Both the position numbers and the translations under genes were made by a program. Positions 11,109 through 26,708 of a stretch of 64,000 nt of DNA are shown here, piece after piece. The stretch comes from Caldithrix abyssi (GTDB lineage: Bacteria > Calditrichota > Calditrichia > Calditrichales > Calditrichaceae). The stretch spans positions 1 through 64,000 of the forward strand of contig DRQG01000034.1 of NCBI GenBank assembly GCA_011369465.1, given 5' to 3'. Each line of letters begins with the position of its first letter. The stretch's first letter is position 1. Under the pieces are notes generated by a model. The model did not search any database and was not told the origin of the DNA. It was given only the letters and a program-made list of their open reading frames with translations.

Positions 11109-12464
11109 TCAAAGCGGATTTAAGGGCGGCAGGTAGCTGCGGCGCATACCCGCTGTTTTTTTCAGATATGATTTACGGAATCGTTTTAATGCGGCGTATA
11201 ACCGTCGGCCCTGCCAGGTGGTCTTAGACGCGTCTTTTCCATACACCTGTCCCATAAGATTTTGTATTTCTCTAACCAACCGCTCATCGGCGCTCTCCGC
11301 GAATAAAGCGTTTAAACCGGAATGCAAACCTATTTTCCCTGTCCAGTCCAATAGCCTTTGAACCGTTTCGCGGGGCCGGTTGTGCATACAGGCTTTGCGC
11401 AAACAAGCAAAACAGGCTTTTTCCGATTCCTGCCATTGGTGTTTATAGTCCGAATAACGACGTTTGAATTCCGGCGCATAACGACGCGTAAGCCGATAAA
11501 ACAGCATCAGAATTAGTGTTGCGCTTAAAAGCAGAATAGTCATTTTGGTATAATCGAGTTCATCCGCTGCTTCACCCTCTGCCGTAAGTGTATCCTGTTC
11601 AACAGGAAACAAAGCGGCTTGTTCGGGCGCTTTTTGGGCGTAAAACCGGATGGCCGGAACCCGTGCCGTTTGCAGCCGTTTGCGATGGATATTCCACCAA
11701 GAAAATTCGACGGCAGGCAGAGTATACCTTCCGCTGTCCTGTACGATATAGGTTACCGACTCAATGCGTTGACCGATTCTTTGCGATCCGCGTTCACCGC
11801 CAAAATCTTCCACTATCGGGCTGTGCGGGTAAACGGCCAGGCCGGGGATGGAATCAAAGGCCAGAGGCGGGATAACCATGGCCAGCGCATCATATACTTT
11901 GAATGTCAGTGTGCGCTCAAGAGCGTCCCCCACTCTGAGCGTATCCGTTTGTGGGCTTCGTTTCTGCGAGGCCGTCATTCTTGACGCAGCGATAAAGTAC
12001 GATAGTCCGCGGGCTTCCGGCGGCAGCTCGGCGGTAAATGTAAACGGCCGGGTCTTCAGCGTTGTAAGAGCGGAAGGCCGGGCGTTTTCCAGCGCATAAT
12101 AGAAGCCGACCGTTACAGACGGGACATAGTACGTACCGGGAAGCTGCGGTATAATTTTATATTCTCTGCGGATACCGGCGTAGCTTTCGCTGTCAATTTG
12201 TTCCGTTAGATTCATCGACCGTTCCGGCGGGAGGGTAATGGCATTTTCAACGTTTATGACAGGAAATTGCGGCGCTTTGCTGAACCAGGTAGGGACGAGA
12301 ATATCCACCTCGAGCACAACCGTTTCACCGATAATGACTTTGCTCTTTGGCTTTATCTCAGCGCGGATGAATGGCCCGGGCTGCTGAGCCGCTACAAATA
12401 CAGGTAACAGCAAAAATACCGTAAAGATACGTTTAAATCTATTTCTGAATTGTAGCGGAATCAT
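11109..12464 (-). CDS. batD: BatD-like protein (aerotolerance operon)
   Basis: 451 aa. Signal peptide (to about VAAQ), then tandem beta-sandwich domains of the BatD/oxygen-tolerance family (KSKVIIGETVVLEVDI, VQDSGRYTLPAVEFSWWN). A single membrane helix lies near residues 315-335 (MTILLLSATLILMLF), followed by a basic cytoplasmic tail of about 115 residues. BatD is thought to be a periplasm-facing partner of the VWA proteins BatA and BatB. It is the last gene of the minus-strand Bat block, 1 base after batC. Part of its 3' end is duplicated at about 23.0 kb. Confidence 0.88.
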   Translation of the reverse strand: MIPLQFRNRFKRIFTVFLLLPVFVAAQQPGPFIRAEIKPKSKVIIGETVVLEVDILVPTWFSKAPQFPVINVENAITLPPERSMNLTEQIDSESYAGIRREYKIIPQLPGTYYVPSVTVGFYYALENARPSALTTLKTRPFTFTAELPPEARGLSYFIAASRMTASQKRSPQTDTLRVGDALERTLTFKVYDALAMVIPPLAFDSIPGLAVYPHSPIVEDFGGERGSQRIGQRIESVTYIVQDSGRYTLPAVEFSWWNIHRKRLQTARVPAIRFYAQKAPEQAALFPVEQDTLTAEGEAADELDYTKMTILLLSATLILMLFYRLTRRYAPEFKRRYSDYKHQWQESEKACFACLRKACMHNRPRETVQRLLDWTGKIGLHSGLNALFAESADERLVREIQNLMGQVYGKDASKTTWQGRRLYAALKRFRKSYLKKTAGMRRSYLPPLNPL

Positions 12465-12465
12465 T

Positions 12466-13143
12466 CTATTTTACCGCCTCTGTGGTATTGTTTTGCATCA
12501 TCGTCTGGATAATAAATTTCTGTCGTAAAAAATCCGCCGGTGAATTTTGCAAACGGCGCAGCCACATCTCGGCTATCTGCTCTTCGGACATCATTTCCAG
12601 AGGCACTTCGCCTTCTTTCCCTTTTTTGCCCTTTTCGCCAAATTCAATCTTATCGGCGGAAAAAGTGGGCTGTTGCGCTTCCTCTTCAAAATCGTCTTCC
12701 TTTTGGCGTTTAATTAACCCGGCGACAATGGTACGATTTTCCTCGGCTCTGGGCCAGTTGGGGCGCCGTTTGAGCGCCTGATCATAATTTTTCACAGCCT
12801 CTTCGTACGAGCCCAGCCAGGCGTAACTATTTCCCAGATTATAGTAAGCCGCGGCGCTGTCGCTGCGGGCAAACCAGTTTATGGCCTGATCATACTCGCC
12901 CGCTTTGTAATAGGCTGTGCCTTTCCAAAACGGGTCGGCAAAATGTTCCGCGGCTTGTTTATAATCGCCATTCTCAAAATAGTAGCGGCCTTGCTGGTCG
13001 GGCGTCAGCCACAAATCCATAAAACGGAATTCGCTCGACTCCGCTTTGAGAAAGACGGCAATGACAACAAAAAATAGCACAACAAGTCCAATCCACAGGA
13101 TTGGTTTTTTCTTTCTTTTTATATTTGTGTTTTGTTTATTCAT
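12466..13143 (-). CDS. batC: BatC/BatE-like TPR protein
   Basis: 225 aa from ATG 13143. A longer frame starts with GTG at 13212 but overlaps batB by 40 bases and lacks a Shine-Dalgarno sequence. An N-terminal membrane helix (PILWIGLVVLFFVVIAVF) is followed by TPR repeats (about 50-135; AAAYYNLGNSYAWLGSYEEA) and an acidic/basic tail. TPR proteins of the Bat operon probably scaffold the BatA-BatB complex. It lies between batB and batD in the usual order. The central TPR segment is present in the chimeric duplicate at 23095-23196. Confidence 0.85.
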   Translation of the reverse strand: MNKQNTNIKRKKKPILWIGLVVLFFVVIAVFLKAESSEFRFMDLWLTPDQQGRYYFENGDYKQAAEHFADPFWKGTAYYKAGEYDQAINWFARSDSAAAYYNLGNSYAWLGSYEEAVKNYDQALKRRPNWPRAEENRTIVAGLIKRQKEDDFEEEAQQPTFSADKIEFGEKGKKGKEGEVPLEMMSEEQIAEMWLRRLQNSPADFLRQKFIIQTMMQNNTTEAVK

Positions 13144-13172
13144 TTTATTGTCTATGTTTTTAGCAACCTTCT

Positions 13173-14174
13173 TTATGCTCTCCACTGCAATGTCCAGCCT
13201 TTGCGAAACCACAGGGCGGCCAGCAAGACGATGGGAAAAAGCAGATAGTAGCCGTTGTCTCTCCAGCGCAGGCTTTCGTCTTCGGCCAGTGCGGCCTGTA
13301 AATGGGTCTGAATGCTGCGCTGAAGCCTTTCAACGTCGTTGTCATCCACCGTACTGCCGATGACCGGTATATCGGCCTTTTGGGAAAGCGTATGCAAACC
13401 TTCATAATCAAACGGCGCCATAACCCGCCGTCCGTTTTTGGTTAAAAAGCGGTTCTTCCCCGTTTGAATCGGACCGCCCTCCCGCGTACCGAAAGCCAGT
13501 ACCGCAATTTGGTTACGGCTCGTCTGCATATATTGGGTAAATTGTGCGGCGTATTTTCCGGAAATCCCATCGGTAAAAAACAATATGGTGCCGGGAATCT
13601 CGCTTTTGTCCAGCAGGGATGCCGCCAACTTCAGAGCTTTTTGCGGCGCTTTTCCTTTTGAAGGCATAATATGGGTACTCAGCGATTCGATATACATGTT
13701 CAGCAAAGCAGGGTCATCGGTAAAGGGCAAAACCGTATGCGCCGAGCCGGCATAAACCAGAAGAGCCGTGCGGGCGCCTTGCCGCAGTTGCAGCAGGTCT
13801 GTTATTTTTAATTTGGCCCGTTCCAGCCGTGTCGGCGCTATATCTACCGCATCCATGGTTTGCGAAAGATCGAGGGCAATAACCAGCGGCGCTTTATCTT
13901 CGCTAAAGGGAGACGGTTCGCGCTGCCAGGCCGGGCCGGCCAGAGCCAGAGCAGCCAGTATGATGAACAATGAAATCAAATGAATAGGGCGGAATTTAGC
14001 ACTGGCCGCCGGCCGAACTTTTAAATGTTCCAGCAAATGCGGCGCGATGATATTACGCCATTGGTAATCGGCGCCGAGACGTTTTTGGGTGATAAAATAC
14101 AACAGCGGCGCAGCCAGTATACCTAACAGCCAACAGGGCCGTAAAAAATGAAAATACTGCCAACCCTCAAACAT
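13173..14174 (-). CDS. batB: BatB: VWA-domain membrane protein
   Basis: 333 aa. N-terminal membrane segments (about 13-30 and 65-83), a von Willebrand A domain (about 95-280) and a C-terminal helix (YYLLFPIVLLAALWF). The MIDAS begins DLSQT, where DxSxS is usual: the third position is Thr instead of Ser, which can still coordinate metal. TDGISG supplies the last Asp. The family role is metal-dependent protein binding in a complex with BatA, folded or activated by MoxR. It overlaps the 3' end of batA by 8 bases, indicating translational coupling. Confidence 0.9.
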   Translation of the reverse strand: MFEGWQYFHFLRPCWLLGILAAPLLYFITQKRLGADYQWRNIIAPHLLEHLKVRPAASAKFRPIHLISLFIILAALALAGPAWQREPSPFSEDKAPLVIALDLSQTMDAVDIAPTRLERAKLKITDLLQLRQGARTALLVYAGSAHTVLPFTDDPALLNMYIESLSTHIMPSKGKAPQKALKLAASLLDKSEIPGTILFFTDGISGKYAAQFTQYMQTSRNQIAVLAFGTREGGPIQTGKNRFLTKNGRRVMAPFDYEGLHTLSQKADIPVIGSTVDDNDVERLQRSIQTHLQAALAEDESLRWRDNGYYLLFPIVLLAALWFRKGWTLQWRA

Positions 14175-15162
14175 TTTGCGCCCTCATTCTGCTAAACCAT
14201 GTGCGGAGTCCCATAAAAATATGATAGAAGATCAAAATAATAAACGCTCCGGCCAGCGGCCACATATACAAGGGCCGCATGGGACGATAGGACAGGGTTT
14301 CGTAATTTTGAACTTCTATTTTATCAAGCTGGCGATAGACCTCTTCCAGCGCATCTCGGTTGGCGGCCATAAAGGACATCCCAGACGTTATCCCGGCAAT
14401 ATCTTTCAGCATTTGTTCATCGAACAGGTCTTCCCCGCTGTTGGTCGGGTCACCGAATCCTATGGTGTGAATTTTGATATGATGATACGCGGCCAGCTCT
14501 GCGGCTTTTTCCGGCGGCACTTTGCTGTTGGTATCGTTTCCGTCCGTCAGCAGGATAACCACCTTTTCCCTGGCTTCGCTGTGTTCAAAGGTTTTGATAG
14601 CCAACCCGATAGCATCGCCCAGCATGGTTTGGGGCCCGGCCATGGCCACCTGTGCTTCCTCAAGCAGACTTTTAATCAGAGAACTGTCCTGGGTGAAAGG
14701 GGCCTGCAAATAGGGGGACGTCCCAAAAAACATCAAAGCAATACGATCGCCTTTACGACGAGTGATAAAATCGCCTAACACATTTTTTATGGCCTGTAAA
14801 CGATTGATACGCTTTCCGTCTTCATCGAACATATCGCGCGTGTCCATCGAACCGGATAGATCGACAACCAATAATAAATCACGACCGGATTTAATCCGCT
14901 CGATGGGCGGCTCGACGAAGACCGGACGCGCCAGAGCGGTCATCAGCAACAGCCATACCGCTGGCGCAATGACTCTCTGCAGGATGTTTCGTTTCAGTAC
15001 CACCGCTCCTTTGGTGGGCTTTTGCCGGGTTTGCAGAGTGAGGTGTTCAAAAAACGGTACGCGTACGGATTCCTGGCTTTCCCGGTAAGGCGGCAGCAGC
15101 AGCCACGTCAGCAACGGCAGCGGCAGAATAAGGAAGATATAAGTGAATTGAAACTCGATCAT
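14167..15162 (-). CDS. batA: BatA: VWA-domain membrane protein
   Basis: 331 aa. N-terminal hydrophobic segments, a VWA domain (about 90-290) with an intact MIDAS (VVDLSGSMD, later TMLGDAI and LTDGND) and a C-terminal membrane helix (MWPLAGAFIILIFYHIF). With BatB it forms the core of the aerotolerance/envelope-stress system. The start ATG overlaps the stop of the DUF4381 gene (ATGA) and the end overlaps batB, so all three genes are coupled. Confidence 0.92.
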   Translation of the reverse strand: MIEFQFTYIFLILPLPLLTWLLLPPYRESQESVRVPFFEHLTLQTRQKPTKGAVVLKRNILQRVIAPAVWLLLMTALARPVFVEPPIERIKSGRDLLLVVDLSGSMDTRDMFDEDGKRINRLQAIKNVLGDFITRRKGDRIALMFFGTSPYLQAPFTQDSSLIKSLLEEAQVAMAGPQTMLGDAIGLAIKTFEHSEAREKVVILLTDGNDTNSKVPPEKAAELAAYHHIKIHTIGFGDPTNSGEDLFDEQMLKDIAGITSGMSFMAANRDALEEVYRQLDKIEVQNYETLSYRPMRPLYMWPLAGAFIILIFYHIFMGLRTWFSRMRAQNV

Positions 15163-15674
15163 CCCCTGCCCCCGCCTTCCACGGCAATCTGTTTATGTTT
15201 TTTTATCCAATCGGCAACCAACGGAATGACTTGTTCAAGATTCTCCGTTTCATCCTGTTCCAAATCTGTGTACGATAATTTTTCAATCAGCTCTCCTGCC
15301 GGGCTGGTAAAACGGCCGCTGCGGTAGGTATGGTCTAAAAATTCCAGCCATTCCCGTCCGTATAGCGGCGCTATTTTGTCGCGCGGCGCCCAGGTTAATA
15401 CCGTTCGTTTTATCAGCTCCGGAATGCGGGAAGCCGATTTATCCTTCAATGCGGGCGAAGAAAGGCCCTGTTTTATAAGTTCTAATTGAGCCAACGCTTC
15501 CCGGCGGTAGCGATTGGACAGCCGGGCTTTATATAAACGATACCCCAGCCAGACAAGCAGCAGAAACAATAAAGCAAAAACGAAATACCAGCCGATTGTC
15601 TGCGGCGTCCAGCTTACGGGTTGAGGAACAACAATATCGTTCAGTTGGCTTAATTTTGTAGAATCTGGCGTCAT
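15159..15674 (-). CDS. DUF4381 membrane protein
   Basis: 171 aa. A short N-terminal stretch, one membrane helix (about 29-48, WYFVFALLFLLLVWLGYRLY) and a helical cytoplasmic part with WAPRDKIAPLYG near residue 110. This matches DUF4381 proteins, regular members of MoxR-DUF58-VWA operons. The molecular role is unknown; position suggests a partner of BatA. Between it and the upstream DUF58 gene lie 142 bases filled by a TTCAAGG-type repeat. Confidence 0.85.
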   Translation of the reverse strand: MTPDSTKLSQLNDIVVPQPVSWTPQTIGWYFVFALLFLLLVWLGYRLYKARLSNRYRREALAQLELIKQGLSSPALKDKSASRIPELIKRTVLTWAPRDKIAPLYGREWLEFLDHTYRSGRFTSPAGELIEKLSYTDLEQDETENLEQVIPLVADWIKKHKQIAVEGGGRG

Positions 15675-15699
15675 GTTTTTTTCTGTTAATTCGTTTAAA

Positions 15700-15785
15700 A
15701 TTGATAGGGTTCAAGGGGGCAAGGGTTCAAGCTAAATAAAATCGTCTAAACCCTTGAACCCTCAAATCCTTGAACCCTTTACCAC
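15700..15785. repeat. TTGAACCC/TTCAAGG inverted repeat
   Basis: GGGTTCAAGG and AAGGGTTCAAG on the left (about 15708-15731) pair with CCCTTGAACCC and CCTTGAACCC on the right (about 15750-15779). Related sequence recurs at 16770-16800, at 17205-17300 and inside the moxR coding sequence near 17700, so this is a small dispersed family concentrated in the Bat operon. Confidence 0.75.
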
Positions 15786-15816
15786 TTTTATCCTTTATCC
15801 CCCTCAATCCTCAACA

Positions 15817-16755
15817 TTATTTCGGCAATCCCGCGCCCAGTAAAAGGCGTATCTTATCGGCCGGATCATCTTCGGTTGAAATGGGAAGTACGGGAATGGC
15901 CAGTTCATCCTGCCACTTCATAATGGCTTTAAGCCGCTTATCGGCCACTTCTTTAACCTGTTTGCGCAATACGCCCCTGGCGGTATCCAGTTCCAGTTGC
16001 AGCTCCCCGTCGCTCACCACCAGTTTGGCGTCTGTCGGAATGGTCGTGGCCAGAGGATCAAAAATGGGCAGAGCAATGACGTCATTGTGTCGGGCAATAA
16101 GGGTAATCAGGCGCGTCGTATATTCATCAAGCCCGTTAAAATCGCTCAGTATAATCACAATTTTATCATGGCCTACCAGGCGATGAACGGATTCCAGAGC
16201 TTTATTTAATTGACCTGGATTTTCGTTTATTTGCTCGTTCACATTCAAAGCCCGGTTTTGTTTGACCAGTTCTCCCAAAAAACGCAGAATATTTTTTCGG
16301 CTGCGATGGGGGCGCAGTTCTATCAAATCGGAATCATTAAAGATCACCCCGCCAACCCGGTCGCCGGCATCAAAAACCCGCCAGGCAATCACGGCGGCGG
16401 CCTGAGCCACGGTAACCGATTTCATCGCCACTTTACTGCCGAAAAACATGGACAGGCGCTGATCCACCACCAGAATGGCCGGACGGTCACGTTCCTCGGT
16501 ATAGACGCGCACATACGGTTTTTGCAGCCGGGCGGTGACCTTCCAATCAATATTACGAATATCATCGCCAGGCAGATAACCGCGCAGCTCTTCGAAATTG
16601 AGCCCGCGTCCGCGCATCCGGGAGGCGTGCCTGCCGCTTAAAAGGCTGTTTTTAGGCTGGCGGGGCAGCAACGTAAACCCTCCAGAACGGTAGTGCAAGA
16701 CTGTCAGTTCTTCAAGTGTGACGTAGATGCCGGTGTGATTCGTGTCAGTGTTCAT
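15817..16755 (-). CDS. DUF58 protein (MoxR-associated, VWA-like)
   Basis: 312 aa. Conserved DUF58 signature near residues 44-75 (SGRHASRMRGRGLNFEEL, then DDIRNIDWKVTARLQ), followed by a VWA-like fold (PAILVVDQRLSM, KIVIILSDFNGLD). The MIDAS-like motif is DQRLSM, not canonical DxSxS. It is cytoplasmic. DUF58 proteins are almost always encoded next to MoxR ATPases and are probable clients or adaptors. Here a four-helix gene lies between it and moxR. Confidence 0.9.
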   Translation of the reverse strand: MNTDTNHTGIYVTLEELTVLHYRSGGFTLLPRQPKNSLLSGRHASRMRGRGLNFEELRGYLPGDDIRNIDWKVTARLQKPYVRVYTEERDRPAILVVDQRLSMFFGSKVAMKSVTVAQAAAVIAWRVFDAGDRVGGVIFNDSDLIELRPHRSRKNILRFLGELVKQNRALNVNEQINENPGQLNKALESVHRLVGHDKIVIILSDFNGLDEYTTRLITLIARHNDVIALPIFDPLATTIPTDAKLVVSDGELQLELDTARGVLRKQVKEVADKRLKAIMKWQDELAIPVLPISTEDDPADKIRLLLGAGLPK

Positions 16756-16769
16756 AAATATTTTCGTTT

Positions 16770-16800
16770 TTTAGGATCCAAGAGTTCAAGGATAAAAGTC
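16770..16800. repeat. TTCAAGG-type repeat fragment
   Basis: GGATCCAAGAGTTCAAGG, a short degenerate member of the repeat family at 15700-15785, lies just before the DUF58 start on the minus-strand transcript. Confidence 0.5.
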
Positions 16801-16817
16801 AGAATATTTTATCTCCA

Positions 16818-17201
16818 TTACGAACTTTTTTTAACGCTTATTTTTTTCTCTAAGGACTTTATTAGAGATTTTAGCATTCTTTCCACTTCCATTAAATTCT
16901 CAATATAGGTGTCTTCCTTCATATTTCTAGAATATTTTAAATCCTTTGCCAGCATTAACTGTGTTTCCAGTTCACAAAGTGAACCATAGGCGATATATAA
17001 AAATTGTATATATTCTTTTGTTGTTTTCCTGCCATACCCCTCGGCAATATTAGAAGGAATCGATACGGCGGCTCTTTTAATTTGTGAAGTTAATCCGTAT
17101 TTCTCTTCATCAGGAAACTGTTTGGTTAATTTGTACACATCCAAACACAAGGAATAAGCTTTTTGCCAGACAACCAGGTCTTTATAGTTTCTTAACATCA
17201 T
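16818..17201 (-). CDS. Four-helix bundle protein (23S rRNA IVP / S23-like)
   Basis: 127 aa, all helical. The family signature is clear: YKDLVVWQKAY at the N-terminus, FPDEEKYGLTSQIKRAAVSI, PSNIAEGYGR, then YIQFLYIAYGSLCELETQL. These proteins, first seen encoded in 23S rRNA intervening sequences, form pentameric bundles; their function is unknown. Related folds serve in diversity-generating retroelements (Avd), but no reverse transcriptase is in the window. GGAG precedes the ATG. It is flanked on both sides by TTCAAGG-type repeats within an otherwise ordered moxR-DUF58 operon, which suggests insertion. Confidence 0.9.
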   Translation of the reverse strand: MMLRNYKDLVVWQKAYSLCLDVYKLTKQFPDEEKYGLTSQIKRAAVSIPSNIAEGYGRKTTKEYIQFLYIAYGSLCELETQLMLAKDLKYSRNMKEDTYIENLMEVERMLKSLIKSLEKKISVKKSS

Positions 17202-17204
17202 AAC

Positions 17205-17300
17205 TCCTCAGACCCTTGAACCCTAAACCCTTGAATCCTCAAATATAATACTACTCTTCCCCCTTAACTCCTTGAACTCTTGAACTCCCGAATCCTATTT
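17205..17300. repeat. TTGAACCC-type repeat block
   Basis: Repeated units CCCTTGAACCCT, CCCTTGAATCC, CTCCTTGAACTCTTGAACTCC and CGAATCC fill the spacer between moxR and the four-helix gene. They belong to the family at 15700-15785. Little else fits in the 111-base spacer. Confidence 0.75.
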
Positions 17301-17312
17301 ACCCCACATATA

Positions 17313-18302
17313 TCATGCTACAGCCACCAACTTCAACACTTCGTCAATCACCTGATCCGCATTGATGCCGGATGCGTTAGCCTGATAGCTGAGCATAATG
17401 CGGTGTCGCAGTACATCATGCACCACTGCCCGAATGTTATCGGGAGTGACAAAATCGCTGCCGTTCAGCCAGGCATGTACCCGCGAGCATTTATCCAGAC
17501 CTATCGCGCCCCGCGGACTGGCACCCACTTCAATCCACTTTTTTAAGTCATCGCTGTATTTTTCCGGAAAGCGGGTGGCGTTCACCAGAGCGACGATGTA
17601 TTTTTCCATATTTTCCGCAATATGGATGTCCATAATTTCCTTACGGGCCGCAAAGATGACATCCTGTTGAAGCGGCTCTTCCTTATTTTTTTCCTCGTTT
17701 CCTCGAATCCTTGAATCCTTCCCCTTTTCTTCCTTCCTCAACAACTGCAGCACCTGTCGTTCAGAAGCCTCATCGGGATAGGTGATAACCACATGCATGA
17801 TAAAGCGGTCCATCTGCGCTTCGGGCAGGGGATAGGTTCCCTCCTGCTCGATAGGATTCTGGGTGGCCATGACCATGAACAAATCCGGCATTTTATGCGT
17901 TTTTTTAGCCACGGTTACCTGCCGTTCCTCCATTGCTTCCAGTAGTGCCGCCTGCACCTTGGCCGGCGCACGGTTGATTTCATCGGCCAGAACGATATTG
18001 GCAAAAAGCGGCCCCGGTTCAAAACGAAATTCTCCTTTACCGCCCGAGCTATAATAAATTTCCGTTCCGGTGATATCCGAGGGCAGCAGGTCGGGGGTGA
18101 ACTGAATGCGCGAAAAATCGGCATGCAGGTGTTTGGCCATGCTTTTCACGGCACGCGTTTTGGCCAGACCGGGCAGGCCTTCCACCAATAAATTGCCGTT
18201 GGCCAAAAGCCCGATGATTAAACGCTCAACAATATGTTCCTGTCCGATGATGGATTGAGACATACGATTATGAAGTTCTTGAATCGCTTCATGTGGAGAC
18301 AT
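17313..18302 (-). CDS. MoxR family AAA+ ATPase
   Basis: 329 aa from ATG 18302, which has AGGAAAGG about 8 bases upstream; a longer frame from 18326 would overlap the HAD gene. Walker A is GLPGLAKT, Walker B is VLADEINRAP, and sensor 1 is ATQNPIEQEGTYPLPEAQ. MoxR ATPases use ATP to remodel or mature VWA-domain proteins, here probably BatA, BatB and the DUF58 protein. Between the YPDEASERQVLQLLRKEE segment and the next helix is an unusual 17-residue charged stretch (GKDSRIRGNEEKNK) encoded by DNA resembling the TTCAAGG repeats of this operon. Confidence 0.93.
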   Translation of the reverse strand: MSPHEAIQELHNRMSQSIIGQEHIVERLIIGLLANGNLLVEGLPGLAKTRAVKSMAKHLHADFSRIQFTPDLLPSDITGTEIYYSSGGKGEFRFEPGPLFANIVLADEINRAPAKVQAALLEAMEERQVTVAKKTHKMPDLFMVMATQNPIEQEGTYPLPEAQMDRFIMHVVITYPDEASERQVLQLLRKEEKGKDSRIRGNEEKNKEEPLQQDVIFAARKEIMDIHIAENMEKYIVALVNATRFPEKYSDDLKKWIEVGASPRGAIGLDKCSRVHAWLNGSDFVTPDNIRAVVHDVLRHRIMLSYQANASGINADQVIDEVLKLVAVA

Positions 18303-18306
18303 AAAA

Positions 18307-19344
18307 CTACCTTTCCTGAAGTTCAAACGGATAAATAACTTTCCAATCCACTTTCATATCCACCACCGTCCAGCCGTTTTTCCGGGCCTCATCCAATCCC
18401 TTATCCAAACGGCCGATAGGCGAGTTGCGGTCGTATGCCCATTCCCGTTCCTCGTCAGTGTGATGAACATACAGGCAAAAATGTGTCTTCGGCCCGGCAG
18501 CGGTCCATTGCAACATTTGCAAGTCCCCGTCGGAATTACCGAAGGCGGCGATGGGTCTTTTACCGATAAAGCGATGTATCCCCACCGGCTTACCGTCTTT
18601 ATCATCAATAAAATCGATCCAGGGCAGTTTAACCAGAACCGGTTTACCGTCTCTAAACTCAAATTTTAACTTGCCCATGCTGCCCACCACTTGTTCGGGC
18701 GGAATGCCATATACTTCTTCCACCCAGGGTCGCATAAACTCGATGCCCCCTCCGGATACAATGAATGTCTTAAATCCATTATCCCGCAAAAAATTCAATA
18801 GTTCCAACATTGGCTGATAAACCAGGTCGGTGAAAGGGCGGTTAAAACGGGGATGTTTTGCAGTCCTAATCCAATCGCGCACGATTTGTTCAAATTCTGC
18901 GGTGGTCATGCCGGCATGCGTGGCCATAACCAATTCTATGATTCCATGCTCACCGGAGGCAGCCAATGCTTCCATATCGTTTTCGAGTACGGCCTTAAAT
19001 GGTTGTTTATCTTTCCATTCCGGGTGATCCGACGCCAGAGCCTTCACCCGGTCTATGGCGAAAAAAAGTTGAAAATAAGCCGGTTGCTCCGACCATAGTG
19101 TGCCGTCATTATCAAAAACAGCAATACGATCCGACGGAACAATATAATCATCCCCTGTTTTATCAGTTACCCGATTTACGAAATCTATTATCGATTGTTT
19201 TGCCTGACCGTCATTCCAGGATGGAAGTAGAGCTGTTTCTTTTTTTTGCTGCTGAACAGAGCAACTTAAAGATATTGCCAGTATTAAACCAAATATAAAA
19301 CTGTAACCTATTGCACGTATTTTACTTTTTATGAAACCTGCCAC
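18307..19344 (-). CDS. HAD-superfamily phosphatase lipoprotein
   Basis: 345 aa from GTG 19344, which has GAGGTG 8 bases upstream. A longer frame to 19422 would run through the terminator of the upstream sulfatase gene. The lipobox is ISLSC, followed by HAD motif I (FDNDGTLW), motif II (FIVSGGG) and motif IV (FGNSDGD). It should be a membrane-anchored Mg-dependent phosphohydrolase facing the periplasm; substrate unknown. Its stop lies 4 bases before the moxR start, so it is the first gene of the moxR-bat transcript. That link is positional only. Confidence 0.85.
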   Translation of the reverse strand: MAGFIKSKIRAIGYSFIFGLILAISLSCSVQQQKKETALLPSWNDGQAKQSIIDFVNRVTDKTGDDYIVPSDRIAVFDNDGTLWSEQPAYFQLFFAIDRVKALASDHPEWKDKQPFKAVLENDMEALAASGEHGIIELVMATHAGMTTAEFEQIVRDWIRTAKHPRFNRPFTDLVYQPMLELLNFLRDNGFKTFIVSGGGIEFMRPWVEEVYGIPPEQVVGSMGKLKFEFRDGKPVLVKLPWIDFIDDKDGKPVGIHRFIGKRPIAAFGNSDGDLQMLQWTAAGPKTHFCLYVHHTDEEREWAYDRNSPIGRLDKGLDEARKNGWTVVDMKVDWKVIYPFELQER

Positions 19345-22925: not shown

Positions 22926-23196
22926 AAGCATATAAAAATTATCAGCAGAAAACGGTTCGGCTTTTTCCAAAGATATATTGAAACACAATGGTCCAATTCT
23001 CAAAGCGGATTTAAGGGCGGCAGGTAGCTGCGGCGCCTACCCGCTGTTTTTTCAAATACGATTTACAAAATCGTTTTAATGCGGCGTATAACCGCCGGCT
23101 CTGGGCCAGTTGGGACGCCGCTTGAGCGTCTGATTATAATTTTTCACAGCCTCTTCATACGAACCCAGCCAAGCCCAGATTATAGTATGCCGCGGC
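22926..23196. pseudogene. Chimeric duplicate of the methyltransferase/batD/batC region
   Basis: 22926-23094 copies 11035-11203 (last codons of the Icmt-like gene through the 3' end of batD) with about eight differences. It is followed without a gap by 23095-23196, a copy of about 12745-12855 (central TPR part of batC) with several substitutions and a 12-base deletion. The 1.5 kb that separate these parts in the original are missing. The join falls at a shared CGG. No functional frame is left, though the minus-strand frame still reads LGSYEEAVKNY and LKRRPNWPRA. It is the trace of a second copy that lost its middle. Confidence 0.93.
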
Positions 23197-23473
23197 TTTG
23201 AACTTTTTTCTATCTGAATATGGAAAGTAAACGGTTTCATTTGACGGCATATTAATATTGTCAATTATATTTTATTTTTGTTGACAATTCATCATAACAT
23301 CAGTATAATCTTTTGAAGTTTCCCTATTTGGCATTATTGGCATTCTTAATTAAAGCTTTTGATACTCTCGACTGTTGCACAGTTTATATTGATATTTTCA
23401 CAGAAACCTATTTTAATTCCACACCCGGCCAAAAGGGCAGCCTTTTGTATTACTATATTATTTTGGTGTAGCA
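23197..23473. other. AT-rich upstream region of the SARP regulator gene
   Basis: About 280 bases without a supported gene, probably holding the regulator promoter. TATATTGATATT (about 23387) and TACTATATTATTTTGG (about 23450) are AT-rich -10-like stretches, but none can be assigned with confidence. Confidence 0.4.
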
Positions 23474-24841
23474 ATGAACAGAATAAAAATTATTCTTGTT
23501 TATAAGAATATTGCTTCACTGCAAAAAATTATTAACCTTCTCAATAAAAAATATGAGCTGCTCAGTATTTCAAACTGTAAGGAGATCATTCCGATACTTG
23601 CTTCCTTTAAACCCGGTCTCTTACTGATAGATCAATTTGTCATACACCAGAGTGGAATGTCATTTCTGGTAAAAATGAAAAAACAATATCCTTCTATCCC
23701 GATCATTTTGATAAGCCAAAATCCGTCTGCCGATTTTATTTTGAAAGCTTTTCGTAACGGCGCTCGTGATTTTCTTCCTCTTTTAGCATCAGAGAAAGAA
23801 ATAACAGGGATTATAAATAATATTGTTCGTTTTGTTTATAATTTTGATGATTACGATACAACAAGGCCTATTAAGGTTGATACAGTACCTAAAACAGGAC
23901 TTCACCATAAATGGTCAAAAATGAAGGCCTCAACACATACCATATTGATCAAGTGTGTACATATTTTTGATAAATTCCATAAATCGGGCAGTGAACCCCG
24001 CTACTGTAAAAAAAAGGAATCATCCTCAAAAAAAGAGAAAAAAGCCCTTCCTTCTACATTCAAACCGTTAAGGGTTAAAATCAATTTTCTGGGTACGTTC
24101 CGGGTACAAATTAATCAGGAAGAAATCCTGTCCTGGTCGGGTAAAAAAACGAAGGAACTGTTTGCCTATCTTACTTTACATCACAATGAACCGGTATACA
24201 GAGATGTTTTAATGGATACATTTTGGCCCAACTCTAAACCCGATGCGGCACGAAATTGTTTAAATGTAAACCTTCACAATCTTCGTATTCAGTTGGAAGA
24301 TAAATTCAGGATAAAGGATGTTATTTTTTTCAAAGAAGAATGTTATCGTTTTCATCCCGATATCTGTTTTGAAATTGACATCGAAAAATTAAAAGAGCTT
24401 TGGAAAAAAGCACAAATTAATGAACATCAGAATAACGAGTCATTAGCCGTATATTTTTACGAACAGGCTGCCGGCTTGTATACAAGCGATTTTATGATCG
24501 ATAATCTTTATGAATCCTGGGCCGAGACGGAAAGAGAATATTTCAGAGAGCTGTATCTTAGCATTCTGGATCGTATAAGCAAGTATTATAGTTTAAACGG
24601 AAAAATTCAGGATGCCATTCAGATTTGTGATACAATTTTGCACAAGGATATCTGTCGTGAAGATATTTACCGCCGTTTAATGCTCTGTTACTATCGTTTA
24701 GGCGAGCGGGACAAAGCTCTTAAACAATTTCAAAAATGTAAAGAAGTCCTGCACCAACAATTTAAAGTTGATCCTTCTCAATCCACCATCCGGTTGCTTC
24801 AGCAAATTAAACACGAAGATAAAACCCTACAAATTTTTTAA
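23474..24841 (+). CDS. SARP-type transcriptional activator with degenerate receiver domain
   Basis: 455 aa. Residues 1-120 look like a response-regulator receiver (LLLIDQFV strand 3, IPIILISQ strand 4, GARDFLP strand 5). However, the acidic pair after strand 1 is missing (ILVYKN) and the conserved Lys after strand 5 is Leu, so it is probably not phosphorylated normally. A Lys-rich linker (about 170-198) leads to an OmpR-like winged helix (FLGTFRVQINQEEIL, GKKTKELFAYLTLHH, LMDTFWP, NCLNVNLHNLRIQLE). The C-terminus is a bacterial activator (BTAD) TPR-like domain (GERDKALKQFQKC). It should be a DNA-binding activator. It lies 115 bases upstream of two co-directional genes of unknown function, its likely targets. 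Confidence 0.85.
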   Translation: MNRIKIILVYKNIASLQKIINLLNKKYELLSISNCKEIIPILASFKPGLLLIDQFVIHQSGMSFLVKMKKQYPSIPIILISQNPSADFILKAFRNGARDFLPLLASEKEITGIINNIVRFVYNFDDYDTTRPIKVDTVPKTGLHHKWSKMKASTHTILIKCVHIFDKFHKSGSEPRYCKKKESSSKKEKKALPSTFKPLRVKINFLGTFRVQINQEEILSWSGKKTKELFAYLTLHHNEPVYRDVLMDTFWPNSKPDAARNCLNVNLHNLRIQLEDKFRIKDVIFFKEECYRFHPDICFEIDIEKLKELWKKAQINEHQNNESLAVYFYEQAAGLYTSDFMIDNLYESWAETEREYFRELYLSILDRISKYYSLNGKIQDAIQICDTILHKDICREDIYRRLMLCYYRLGERDKALKQFQKCKEVLHQQFKVDPSQSTIRLLQQIKHEDKTLQIF

Positions 24842-24955
24842 TTTAAGTGTATTTTAATTAAAGATTAAGCGCTGGTTAATCCTTTAAGTTTATTATGTTG
24901 GCGAATTTATTAAAGGATCCTTTATCTTTGACATTAATTAACCTGGAGGTGTAAT

Positions 24956-25423
24956 ATGCCGTTTACAATGGTTCATGAGGACATTCTGCCATTCTTTGGG
25001 GTGAACTGTCAGTGCGAACTCGAAGAGCGCAGCCTGCCTCAGCCGCTTCCCGGGCTGCCCACTACCACAGGTTGGGCTCCCACAAACATTATTCAAACAG
25101 GACAAAACTGGCGCGTCCAATTTGATTGGAACACCATAGGTCCGTTGAACTATTACATGGCCGGAACCTGGCATTTACGGGTTTATCTGGAAAAAATGGG
25201 CGGTGGGGAGTTTACTTTACCTTCTGCAAACAAGACGGTTAATTTCGTTTCCGCTCCTCATCATTACAGCAACGAATACATCGAAATACCCGGCGGAACG
25301 GTTCCTGCGGGCATTTACAAGCTGGTAACGGCCATAACCATGAAAGGCCCCGGTGGTATTCCCGGCCCCATAGCCATGTTTGGCGAAGGACCGATGGTAC
25401 AGTTTTACGACGTTGGCCCCTAA
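24956..25423 (+). CDS. Unknown 155-aa beta-sandwich-like protein
   Basis: 155 aa, no signal peptide, strong GGAGG Shine-Dalgarno sequence. A Pro-rich segment after a CQC motif (residues 18-20) leads into a domain rich in beta strands: WRVQFDWNTIGP, GTWHLRVYLEKMGGG, YSNEYIEIPGG, VPAGIYKLVTAITMKG and PIAMFGEGPMVQFY. I do not recognise the family. The C-terminal part aligns by eye with the end of the next gene product (LPEGTYRLETSIGF, then VPISAFTESEYIRIY), so both probably carry the same domain. The strong ribosome-binding site suggests high expression. Confidence 0.75.
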   Translation: MPFTMVHEDILPFFGVNCQCELEERSLPQPLPGLPTTTGWAPTNIIQTGQNWRVQFDWNTIGPLNYYMAGTWHLRVYLEKMGGGEFTLPSANKTVNFVSAPHHYSNEYIEIPGGTVPAGIYKLVTAITMKGPGGIPGPIAMFGEGPMVQFYDVGP

Positions 25424-25467
25424 GCGTAAGCGAATGCGGTTTGTATAATGCAATATATTGTAAAAGA

Positions 25468-25502
25468 AATGATCCGGCGGGAAACACCTGCCGGATCATT
25501 AT
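25468..25502 (+). terminator. Hairpin between the two beta-sandwich genes
   Basis: Perfect 11-bp stem AATGATCCGGC / GCCGGATCATT with an 11-base loop, followed by only a weak T-run (ATAAAC). It could be a partial terminator that makes the first gene more abundant than the second, or an RNA-stabilising stem. Confidence 0.55.
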
Positions 25503-25532
25503 AAACTTCACTAAAAAGACAGGTAAGGTCTT

Positions 25533-26444
25533 ATGAGTAACACCTCTAAGAAAAAAAACGCCGCAAACACCAAAAAGAAACAAACCCGATCTTCTATATC
25601 TGCCACCGAAAAAAACAACGTTAAAAAAGAAAATGGCAATTGCCAGGAAGAACTGGAACAAACCCGATTAAAGCTAAACTCCGTGGAAAGTACGCTTATA
25701 AAGATGGAAGAAGAGAACAAAGAATTAAAAAAGGATATCCAGGCCTTAAAAGAACAGAACAGCGAATATCAGAGTCTCATTCATAAGCTGGAAGAACGGG
25801 TACAGGAATTCGATGCCCAGCAGAAGGAACAGGAATTTATCAATTCGCCATATTCGACTTTCAATATCGAGATATACCCAGGAGACAAAGGCTTCAGAGG
25901 AAAAATCATAAATATACAATCAGAAGATAATCAAACGTTTTCGAATATCGATCCGCTGAGAATAACCCAATTTATTTACCGCCATCTGCCTAAAGAAGAA
26001 GAAATAAAAATCCCCGGGCAGCCCGTGCCGGAACCTGTTGAGACTATAGAAAAAGTGCCGGGTGGTCAGGCAACGCAGACCATAAAGTGTCGTTTGCAAA
26101 CCTATCCGGTTTATGAAAAAAAACCACGACGAGCCCTGGAAAAACAGCAATCTTTTCAGGTTGGTATTCTGATAGATTTTAGCGGTGATACAGAGGGCTT
26201 GCCTCCGGATTTACTCGCCAATATTATTGTTTTCGCCCGGTCTCTTGAAACAGGACATACCGTAAAAATTGCTGAAGAACAAAAATCAATATCACTCATT
26301 TCCCCAAAAGAGGTTAAAATCAAATGTGAAGGACTTCCTGAGGGGACATACCGTCTGGAGACATCTATTGGTTTTAGTTCTGTGCAGGGCGAAAAAGTTC
26401 CTATTAGTGCCTTTACCGAATCCGAATATATTCGGATCTATTAA
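25533..26444 (+). CDS. Unknown coiled-coil protein with C-terminal beta-sandwich-like domain
   Basis: 303 aa, no signal peptide. Residues 1-35 are Lys/Asn/Thr-rich and probably disordered. About 36-105 form a coiled coil (LEQTRLKLNSVESTLIKMEE). About 108-155 form a small domain (STFNIEIYPGDKGFRGKIIN, then FIYRHLPKEEE). From about 205 comes a beta-rich domain (SFQVGILIDFSGD, IIVFARSLETG, LPEGTYRLETSIGF, ISAFTESEYIRIY) similar by eye to the upstream 155-aa protein. The family is not recognised. The layout suggests an oligomeric or scaffold protein pairing with its neighbour through like domains. Confidence 0.75.
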   Translation: MSNTSKKKNAANTKKKQTRSSISATEKNNVKKENGNCQEELEQTRLKLNSVESTLIKMEEENKELKKDIQALKEQNSEYQSLIHKLEERVQEFDAQQKEQEFINSPYSTFNIEIYPGDKGFRGKIINIQSEDNQTFSNIDPLRITQFIYRHLPKEEEIKIPGQPVPEPVETIEKVPGGQATQTIKCRLQTYPVYEKKPRRALEKQQSFQVGILIDFSGDTEGLPPDLLANIIVFARSLETGHTVKIAEEQKSISLISPKEVKIKCEGLPEGTYRLETSIGFSSVQGEKVPISAFTESEYIRIY

Positions 26445-26480
26445 ATTGAAGCTCCTTCTGTAATTTATCGGAAGGTTACA

Positions 26481-26708
26481 CTAATTCGGGTATTCAAAAA
26501 CGCTCTTTAGCTCATGGGGGTAATATTTACCGGAATGTGATACCCGGGGGTGATCACCTTTCACCTTCATTTCATCGGTACGCCAATTAAAACGTCTTTC
26601 GTAATCCGGGCAAAGAGGACAACGAAATATAATCCAATCCCCATCTCTGTGCGATTCGCATTCGTGTTTAATCACATCCTGCCCCGGCGTAGACTTAATC
26701 GTAATCAT
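26481..26708 (-). CDS. Small zinc-ribbon-like protein
   Basis: 75 aa from ATG 26708, which has AGGAAA about 8 bases upstream; an ATG at 26741 is less likely. Putative metal ligands: His and Cys in IKHECESH, then FRCPLCPDY, with later His residues (GDHPRVSHSG). This pattern suggests a single zinc ribbon or a nucleic-acid/protein-binding knuckle. The family is not recognised. It converges on the coiled-coil gene with 36 bases between the stops, so it may belong to the same locus. Confidence 0.65.
   Translation of the reverse strand: MITIKSTPGQDVIKHECESHRDGDWIIFRCPLCPDYERRFNWRTDEMKVKGDHPRVSHSGKYYPHELKSVFEYPN

Follow-up and report, generated by a model that had tools for sequence, protein, structure and literature searches.

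Organization of the locus

The window, a stretch of 64,000 nucleotides, carries three consecutive genes on its plus strand. These encode a SARP-type activator of 455 aa (positions 23474–24841), a 155 aa protein termed b1 (24956–25423) and a 303 aa protein termed b2 (25533–26444). A fourth gene, termed ZnR (26484–26708), lies on the minus strand and encodes a 75 aa Cys/His protein. An earlier note on this DNA, which described a small Cys/His protein converging from the right, was correct in this and in the coordinates and lengths of all four genes. The source genome (4.3 Mb in 161 contigs) has one copy each of b1 and b2. A short TPR-like open reading frame upstream of the SARP gene (23076–23264, minus strand) is perhaps a gene remnant, and a Bat/MoxR-type operon was recognised by eye at 11109–18326 (minus strand).

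The earlier note regarded b1 and b2 as genes of no recognised family. Neither of them, nor ZnR, has a match over the cut-off in Pfam or NCBIfam; in Pfam, b1 and ZnR gave no match at all and b2 of the window gave sub-cut-off matches, mostly to its coiled coil. PHROGs also gave no match for the b1, b2 or ZnR sequence of the window. A literature search found no paper combining DUF1508 with BTAD, nor Calditrichota with SARP.

The SARP-type regulator

Most of what is known about SARP regulators comes from the antibiotic clusters of actinomycetes. The designation of the window's protein as a SARP/BTAD activator agrees with Pfam, where both the winged helix (Trans_reg_C, aa positions 224–280, 27.0 bits with a cut-off of 26.2) and the BTAD domain (positions 301–445, 71 bits with a cut-off of 22.1, E-value = 1.8e-19) score over threshold. 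An N-terminal receiver domain (about positions 1–120; Response_reg, 4e-9) had been overlooked. By eye, no biosynthetic gene cluster was recognised among the open reading frames of the window.

Thirteen SARP sequences were aligned with PhoB, using as a ruler what we take to be the PhoB reference sequence. One of them (L053) has no receiver, leaving 12 for comparison. In all 12 the Lys is absent and the acidic pair is never complete. The phospho-Asp is retained only in the SARP of the window, where the acidic pair and the Lys are missing. Judged by these residues, the domain is a degenerate pseudo-receiver. As the residues for phosphorylation are missing from the 12 receivers, control is probably exerted by a partner or a ligand.

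One reading built on this property, a SARP-helper circuit, has b2, b1 or both binding the pseudo-receiver SARP and acting on it as co-activators or anti-activators, with the genes that are actually controlled lying elsewhere, as with TylU-TylS and Aur1O-Aur1P. This is possible, and we rank it second to the assembly of b1 and b2 discussed below. A SARP without phosphorylation residues needs another input, and control of pseudo-receivers through a bound ligand, the multimer state or a covalent change is documented (PMC12632262). There is also precedent for partners that do not themselves bind DNA, in one case of a SARP and in another of an atypical response regulator (PMC8910723). As in such pairs, a partner gene adjoins the SARP gene here, a likeness of adjacency alone.

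A candidate promoter for the SARP gene (TTGACA-17-TATAAT, positions 23281–23309, plus strand) is a perfect sigma-70 consensus with a 12/12 match. Its −35 box is overlapped by an inverted repeat, ATTGTCAA/TTGACAAT (23257–23264 and 23281–23288), which is a possible operator.

b1 and its upstream region

The ribosome-binding site of b1, GGAGG at 24945–24949, is strong, in line with the earlier note. Upstream of it is a candidate control region (24912–24930, plus strand), proposed on the basis of the sequence and a motif scan. It consists of a palindrome, AAAGGATCCTTT (24912–24923), and the sequence TATCTTTG (24923–24930), which resembles TAnnTTTG, presumably the consensus of the Bacteroidota −7 box. 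In the motif scan, a common TAnnTTTG box ahead of b1 was inconsistent across loci. A search for SARP-type direct repeats ahead of b1 yielded two AT-rich two-copy families that are probably due to chance.

Structure predictions were built on three sequences each. The b1 model is mostly beta and is weak (pLDDT 60, pTM 0.56). Foldseek gave no PDB match at an E-value of 0.001 for the b1 and b2 models, returning generic beta-sandwich folds only; for b1, two unnamed or uncharacterised phage models were found at 6e-4. A profile search of PDB sequences with b1 yielded nothing. The predicted models of b1 and b2 are too weak for the fold to be named. By eye, the N-termini of b1 and b2 are not hydrophobic, consistent with the proposed lack of a signal peptide.

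b2 and the domain it shares with b1

Three parts can be distinguished in b2, whose predicted structure has a pLDDT of 57. The coiled coil (about aa positions 23–103) appears in the model as a helix at 23–103, in accordance with the earlier description of b2 as the protein that adds a coiled coil. A conserved central domain (about aa positions 107–152; nt 25851–25988) has a predicted beta-beta-beta-alpha structure; it was overlooked in the earlier note. The C-terminal beta part (about aa positions 205–303; nt 26145–26441) is the domain common to b2 and b1.

This common domain had been proposed from a visual match. An hhalign comparison of 18 b1 sequences with 14 b2 C-termini gave a score of 47.8 over 99 columns (P = 1.7e-7, probability 93.8). 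The match is not due to chance, as 150 column shuffles of the b2 alignment scored 15.8 or less and the reversed alignment scored 14.5.

Not every b2 has all of these parts. Three Bacteroidota b2 sequences (L048, its near-copy L049, and L050) are seemingly without the C-terminal beta domain, so pairing by way of this domain is less convincing as a rule for all loci. In G467 the central domain of b2 is missing. The possibility that the central domain is a third DUF1508 repeat was rejected, as it shows no profile similarity.

Conservation across genomes

The earlier note proposed a search for the two genes together with an adjacent SARP gene. Homologues of b1 and b2 do co-occur beside SARP genes, both in the phylum of the window and in the Bacteroidota.

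In the window's phylum, taken to be Calditrichota, b1 was found in three of 40 genomes (G000, the source genome; G032; G027). In G032 the SARP gene and, after it, b1 lie at the end of one contig, and b2 and ZnR lie at the end of a second; because these gene pairs sit at contig ends, all four genes are probably contiguous. In G027, b1 has neither a SARP gene nor b2 nearby, and another contig starts with genes for a 242 aa protein, b2 and ZnR. G027 also encodes large proteins (L024, 9002–11251; L025, 9430–11835) with DUF1508-type repeats, a transmembrane stretch and, by eye, an OmpA-like end.

When GTDB contigs were scanned with b1, two Saprospiraceae metagenome-assembled genomes were detected, each with b1, b2 and the SARP gene on one strand and ZnR on the opposite strand between b2 and the SARP gene. 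The order around one of these was then represented by 398 genomes, in searches that scored, for each genome, a restricted set of initial candidates. b1 was found in 14 of them and b2 in 13, all b1-positive and always at the b1 locus, with one copy of each gene per positive genome. ZnR was found in 17, of which 11 have b1. Fisher tests of co-occurrence gave 1.7e-23 for b1 with b2 and 5e-15 for b1 with ZnR. The profiles were partly built from these same loci, but circularity does not explain why b2 is missing from the remaining 384 genomes.

Fifteen Bacteroidota loci were read, i.e. these 14 and that of the second Saprospiraceae genome. b2 adjoins b1 in all 15 (counting G205, where it is fused to BTAD), a SARP gene, intact or cut by the contig end, is adjacent in 13, and ZnR converges on b2 in 12. 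Of the two loci without such a SARP gene, G485 is on a contig too short for a SARP call. The other, G205, has a fused BTAD remnant, a 426 aa open reading frame (L045, 8592–9872) in which the DUF1508 and central parts of b2 are joined to the BTAD end; ZnR is missing there. A single reading frame joining b2 to a BTAD end would favour binding of b2 to the SARP, but this one looks like a deletion product, probably in frame. Gene content is stable and gene order varies among lineages. The flanks are otherwise mostly unrelated between genomes, so a constant target is not visible at the loci, a point against the helper reading. Also, no biosynthetic cluster was seen beside b1/b2 loci. Transposase genes were noted by eye between ZnR and the SARP gene at L048 (9825–10836).

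In a tree of b1, the window's phylum is separate from the Bacteroidota (support 78/72; 80% of bootstrap trees). This topology fits an old presence with losses, and transfer may also have contributed to the b1 distribution.

All four appear from substitution patterns to be protein-coding genes. In the close pair L002/L003, dN/dS is 0.13 for b1, 0.18 for b2, 0.05 for ZnR and 0.11 for SARP; this range of 0.05–0.18 indicates purifying selection. For L048/L049 the values, based on few changes, are 0.04, 0.24, 0.24 and 0.09, respectively.

The four-gene locus is almost certainly a conserved module. Being kept together across two phyla, it is therefore a real functional unit. There is good support for the claim of an undescribed locus: b1 and b2 do have a domain in common, their homologues co-occur and adjoin SARP genes in two phyla, and neither unrelated folds nor a consistent separation of the genes was found. 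The module is without any description that was found. The novelty lies in the locus and its protein families; the mechanism is not part of this claim.

ZnR

In 14 ZnR homologues, residues H15, C17, C30, C33 and H58 are invariant, and the protein likely has one zinc site. A profile search of PDB sequences with ZnR gave a single zinc finger at chance level.

Although ZnR is part of the usual gene set, six of the 398 genomes have it and lack b1, one of these matches being weak. In three of the six (G314, G322, G475) its neighbours are an HTH gene and FabG, counterparts (33%–35% and 77%–78% identical, respectively) of the two genes that flank a complete module in a related genome, G290. At this site the three genomes lack b1, b2 and SARP, with no remnant of b1 or b2. 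Since ZnR alone is kept there, b1, b2 and SARP seem to be gained or lost as a unit, with ZnR as a looser member. Members of a second ZnR subgroup (L081, L082, L084) occur on their own, next to genes for a DeoR-type regulator and a SusC-like protein (names assigned by eye).

Relation to protein machines, defence and mobile elements

The module might serve as an accessory of a large machine, either an extracellular contractile injection system or a gas vesicle. In G310 (L043, 1–4790), injection-system genes (eCIS_core, AAA, spike tip, sheath) are a few kb away from the module, and in G639 (L085, 8316–8861) a gas-vesicle cluster with gvpF/L and gvpK has a b1 homologue after these genes. (G639 is a high-GC genome of another family, and the contig ends just past the b1 homologue.) However, genome searches detected no tail sheath in the source genome or in G032, and gvpA was absent from all 18 genomes with the module, the source genome included; thus neither machine is needed by the module. 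In the Bacteroidota a sheath is present in 9 of 15 genomes with the module versus 12 of 39 without it (p = 0.065), as raw counts with genome size uncontrolled. These searches rule out either partnership as a general rule, and an accessory role of this kind is unlikely.

A role as an anti-phage defence or toxin–antitoxin unit is more improbable still. It would accord with the patchy distribution and the small paired genes, but an enzymatic domain is absent and no defence genes were recognised by eye beside the loci. PADLOC matches to b2 of the window are weak and confined to the coiled coil; among Bacteroidota b2 sequences one weak match (0.019) was obtained and the others gave none. b1 relatives were also unconfirmed in IMG/VR.

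A phage or plasmid origin was rejected on that IMG/VR result and on a PLSDB search in which b1 gave one distant match, to Nonomuraea. PLSDB gave no match for a Bacteroidota b2 or ZnR.

Expression of b1 and b2

The hairpin reported between b1 and b2 is present at 25469–25499 (plus strand), with a 13-bp stem that is not followed by a T run. The 112-nt intergenic region has a folding energy of −34.3 kcal/mol (z = −5.0). Over 12 loci, C-ending codons are used more in b1 than in b2 (Wilcoxon p = 0.009); the difference between b1 and SARP is not significant (p = 0.052). The GC content is 51% in b1 and 35% in SARP. The ribosome-binding site, the hairpin, codon use and GC content fit an unequal expression of b1 and b2, short of proof. 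A SARP helper would not call for a second, paralogous protein such as the single-domain b1, whose ribosome-binding site is strong and whose codon bias is higher; this counts against the helper reading.

Proposed mechanism

The reading that we tentatively place first is that the SARP turns on b1 and b2, which co-assemble in the cytoplasm, with b1 abundant and b2 scarcer. The pseudo-receiver would sense a ligand or partner, upon which the SARP would activate b1 and b2. b1, produced in excess, would associate with b2 through their paralogous domains to form a cytoplasmic complex. Scaffolding or docking may fall to the central domain of b2 and to its N-terminus, which is the coiled coil here and two DUF1508 repeats in most Bacteroidota; ZnR may be an accessory or feedback regulator. 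Indirect support comes from the common domain, the lack of an evident signal peptide and the higher codon bias of b1 relative to b2. Counted against it are the weak b1 model with its generic beta-sandwich matches, the b1 gene that stands alone in G027 and the non-significant codon bias of b1 over SARP. The tentative grade covers the inferred mechanism as a whole, and the near certainty expressed above the conserved module only.

A more elaborate form of this co-assembly is doubtful: an undescribed kind of cytoplasmic assembly, made on demand by the pseudo-receiver SARP, in which b1 would be the bulk and b2 a scaffold that reports the state of assembly to the SARP.

The locus ties a pseudo-receiver SARP to a fixed protein pair of undescribed families, in two phyla beyond the actinomycetes. 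A 2025 review calls the control of pseudo-receivers a mystery (PMC12632262), and the locus offers a small system for asking how they are controlled.

Comparison with known systems

The SARP of the window shares a winged helix and BTAD with the activators AfsR and BagI/FevR. It differs in its additional N-terminal pseudo-receiver, and its NCBIfam scores are far under the equivalog cut-offs. ZnR has a weak match to VdcD (NF041205; E-value = 0.0028), however at 17.5 bits with a cut-off of 30, and no decarboxylase genes were seen nearby.

Most Bacteroidota b2 proteins resemble the DUF1508 (YegP-type) proteins in having two DUF1508-like N-terminal repeats. PF07411 (DUF1508) is present, for example, in b2 of L003. 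It is absent from b2 of the window, which has the N-terminal coiled coil instead.

A parallel in arrangement is offered by two Streptomyces co-activator pairs, TylS-TylU and Aur1P-Aur1O, in which, likewise, a SARP or atypical response regulator is encoded with a partner without a recognised domain (PMC8910723). Those pairs serve antibiotic clusters, whereas the present locus has two paralogous beta proteins and a Cys/His protein; the likeness seen is one of gene arrangement.
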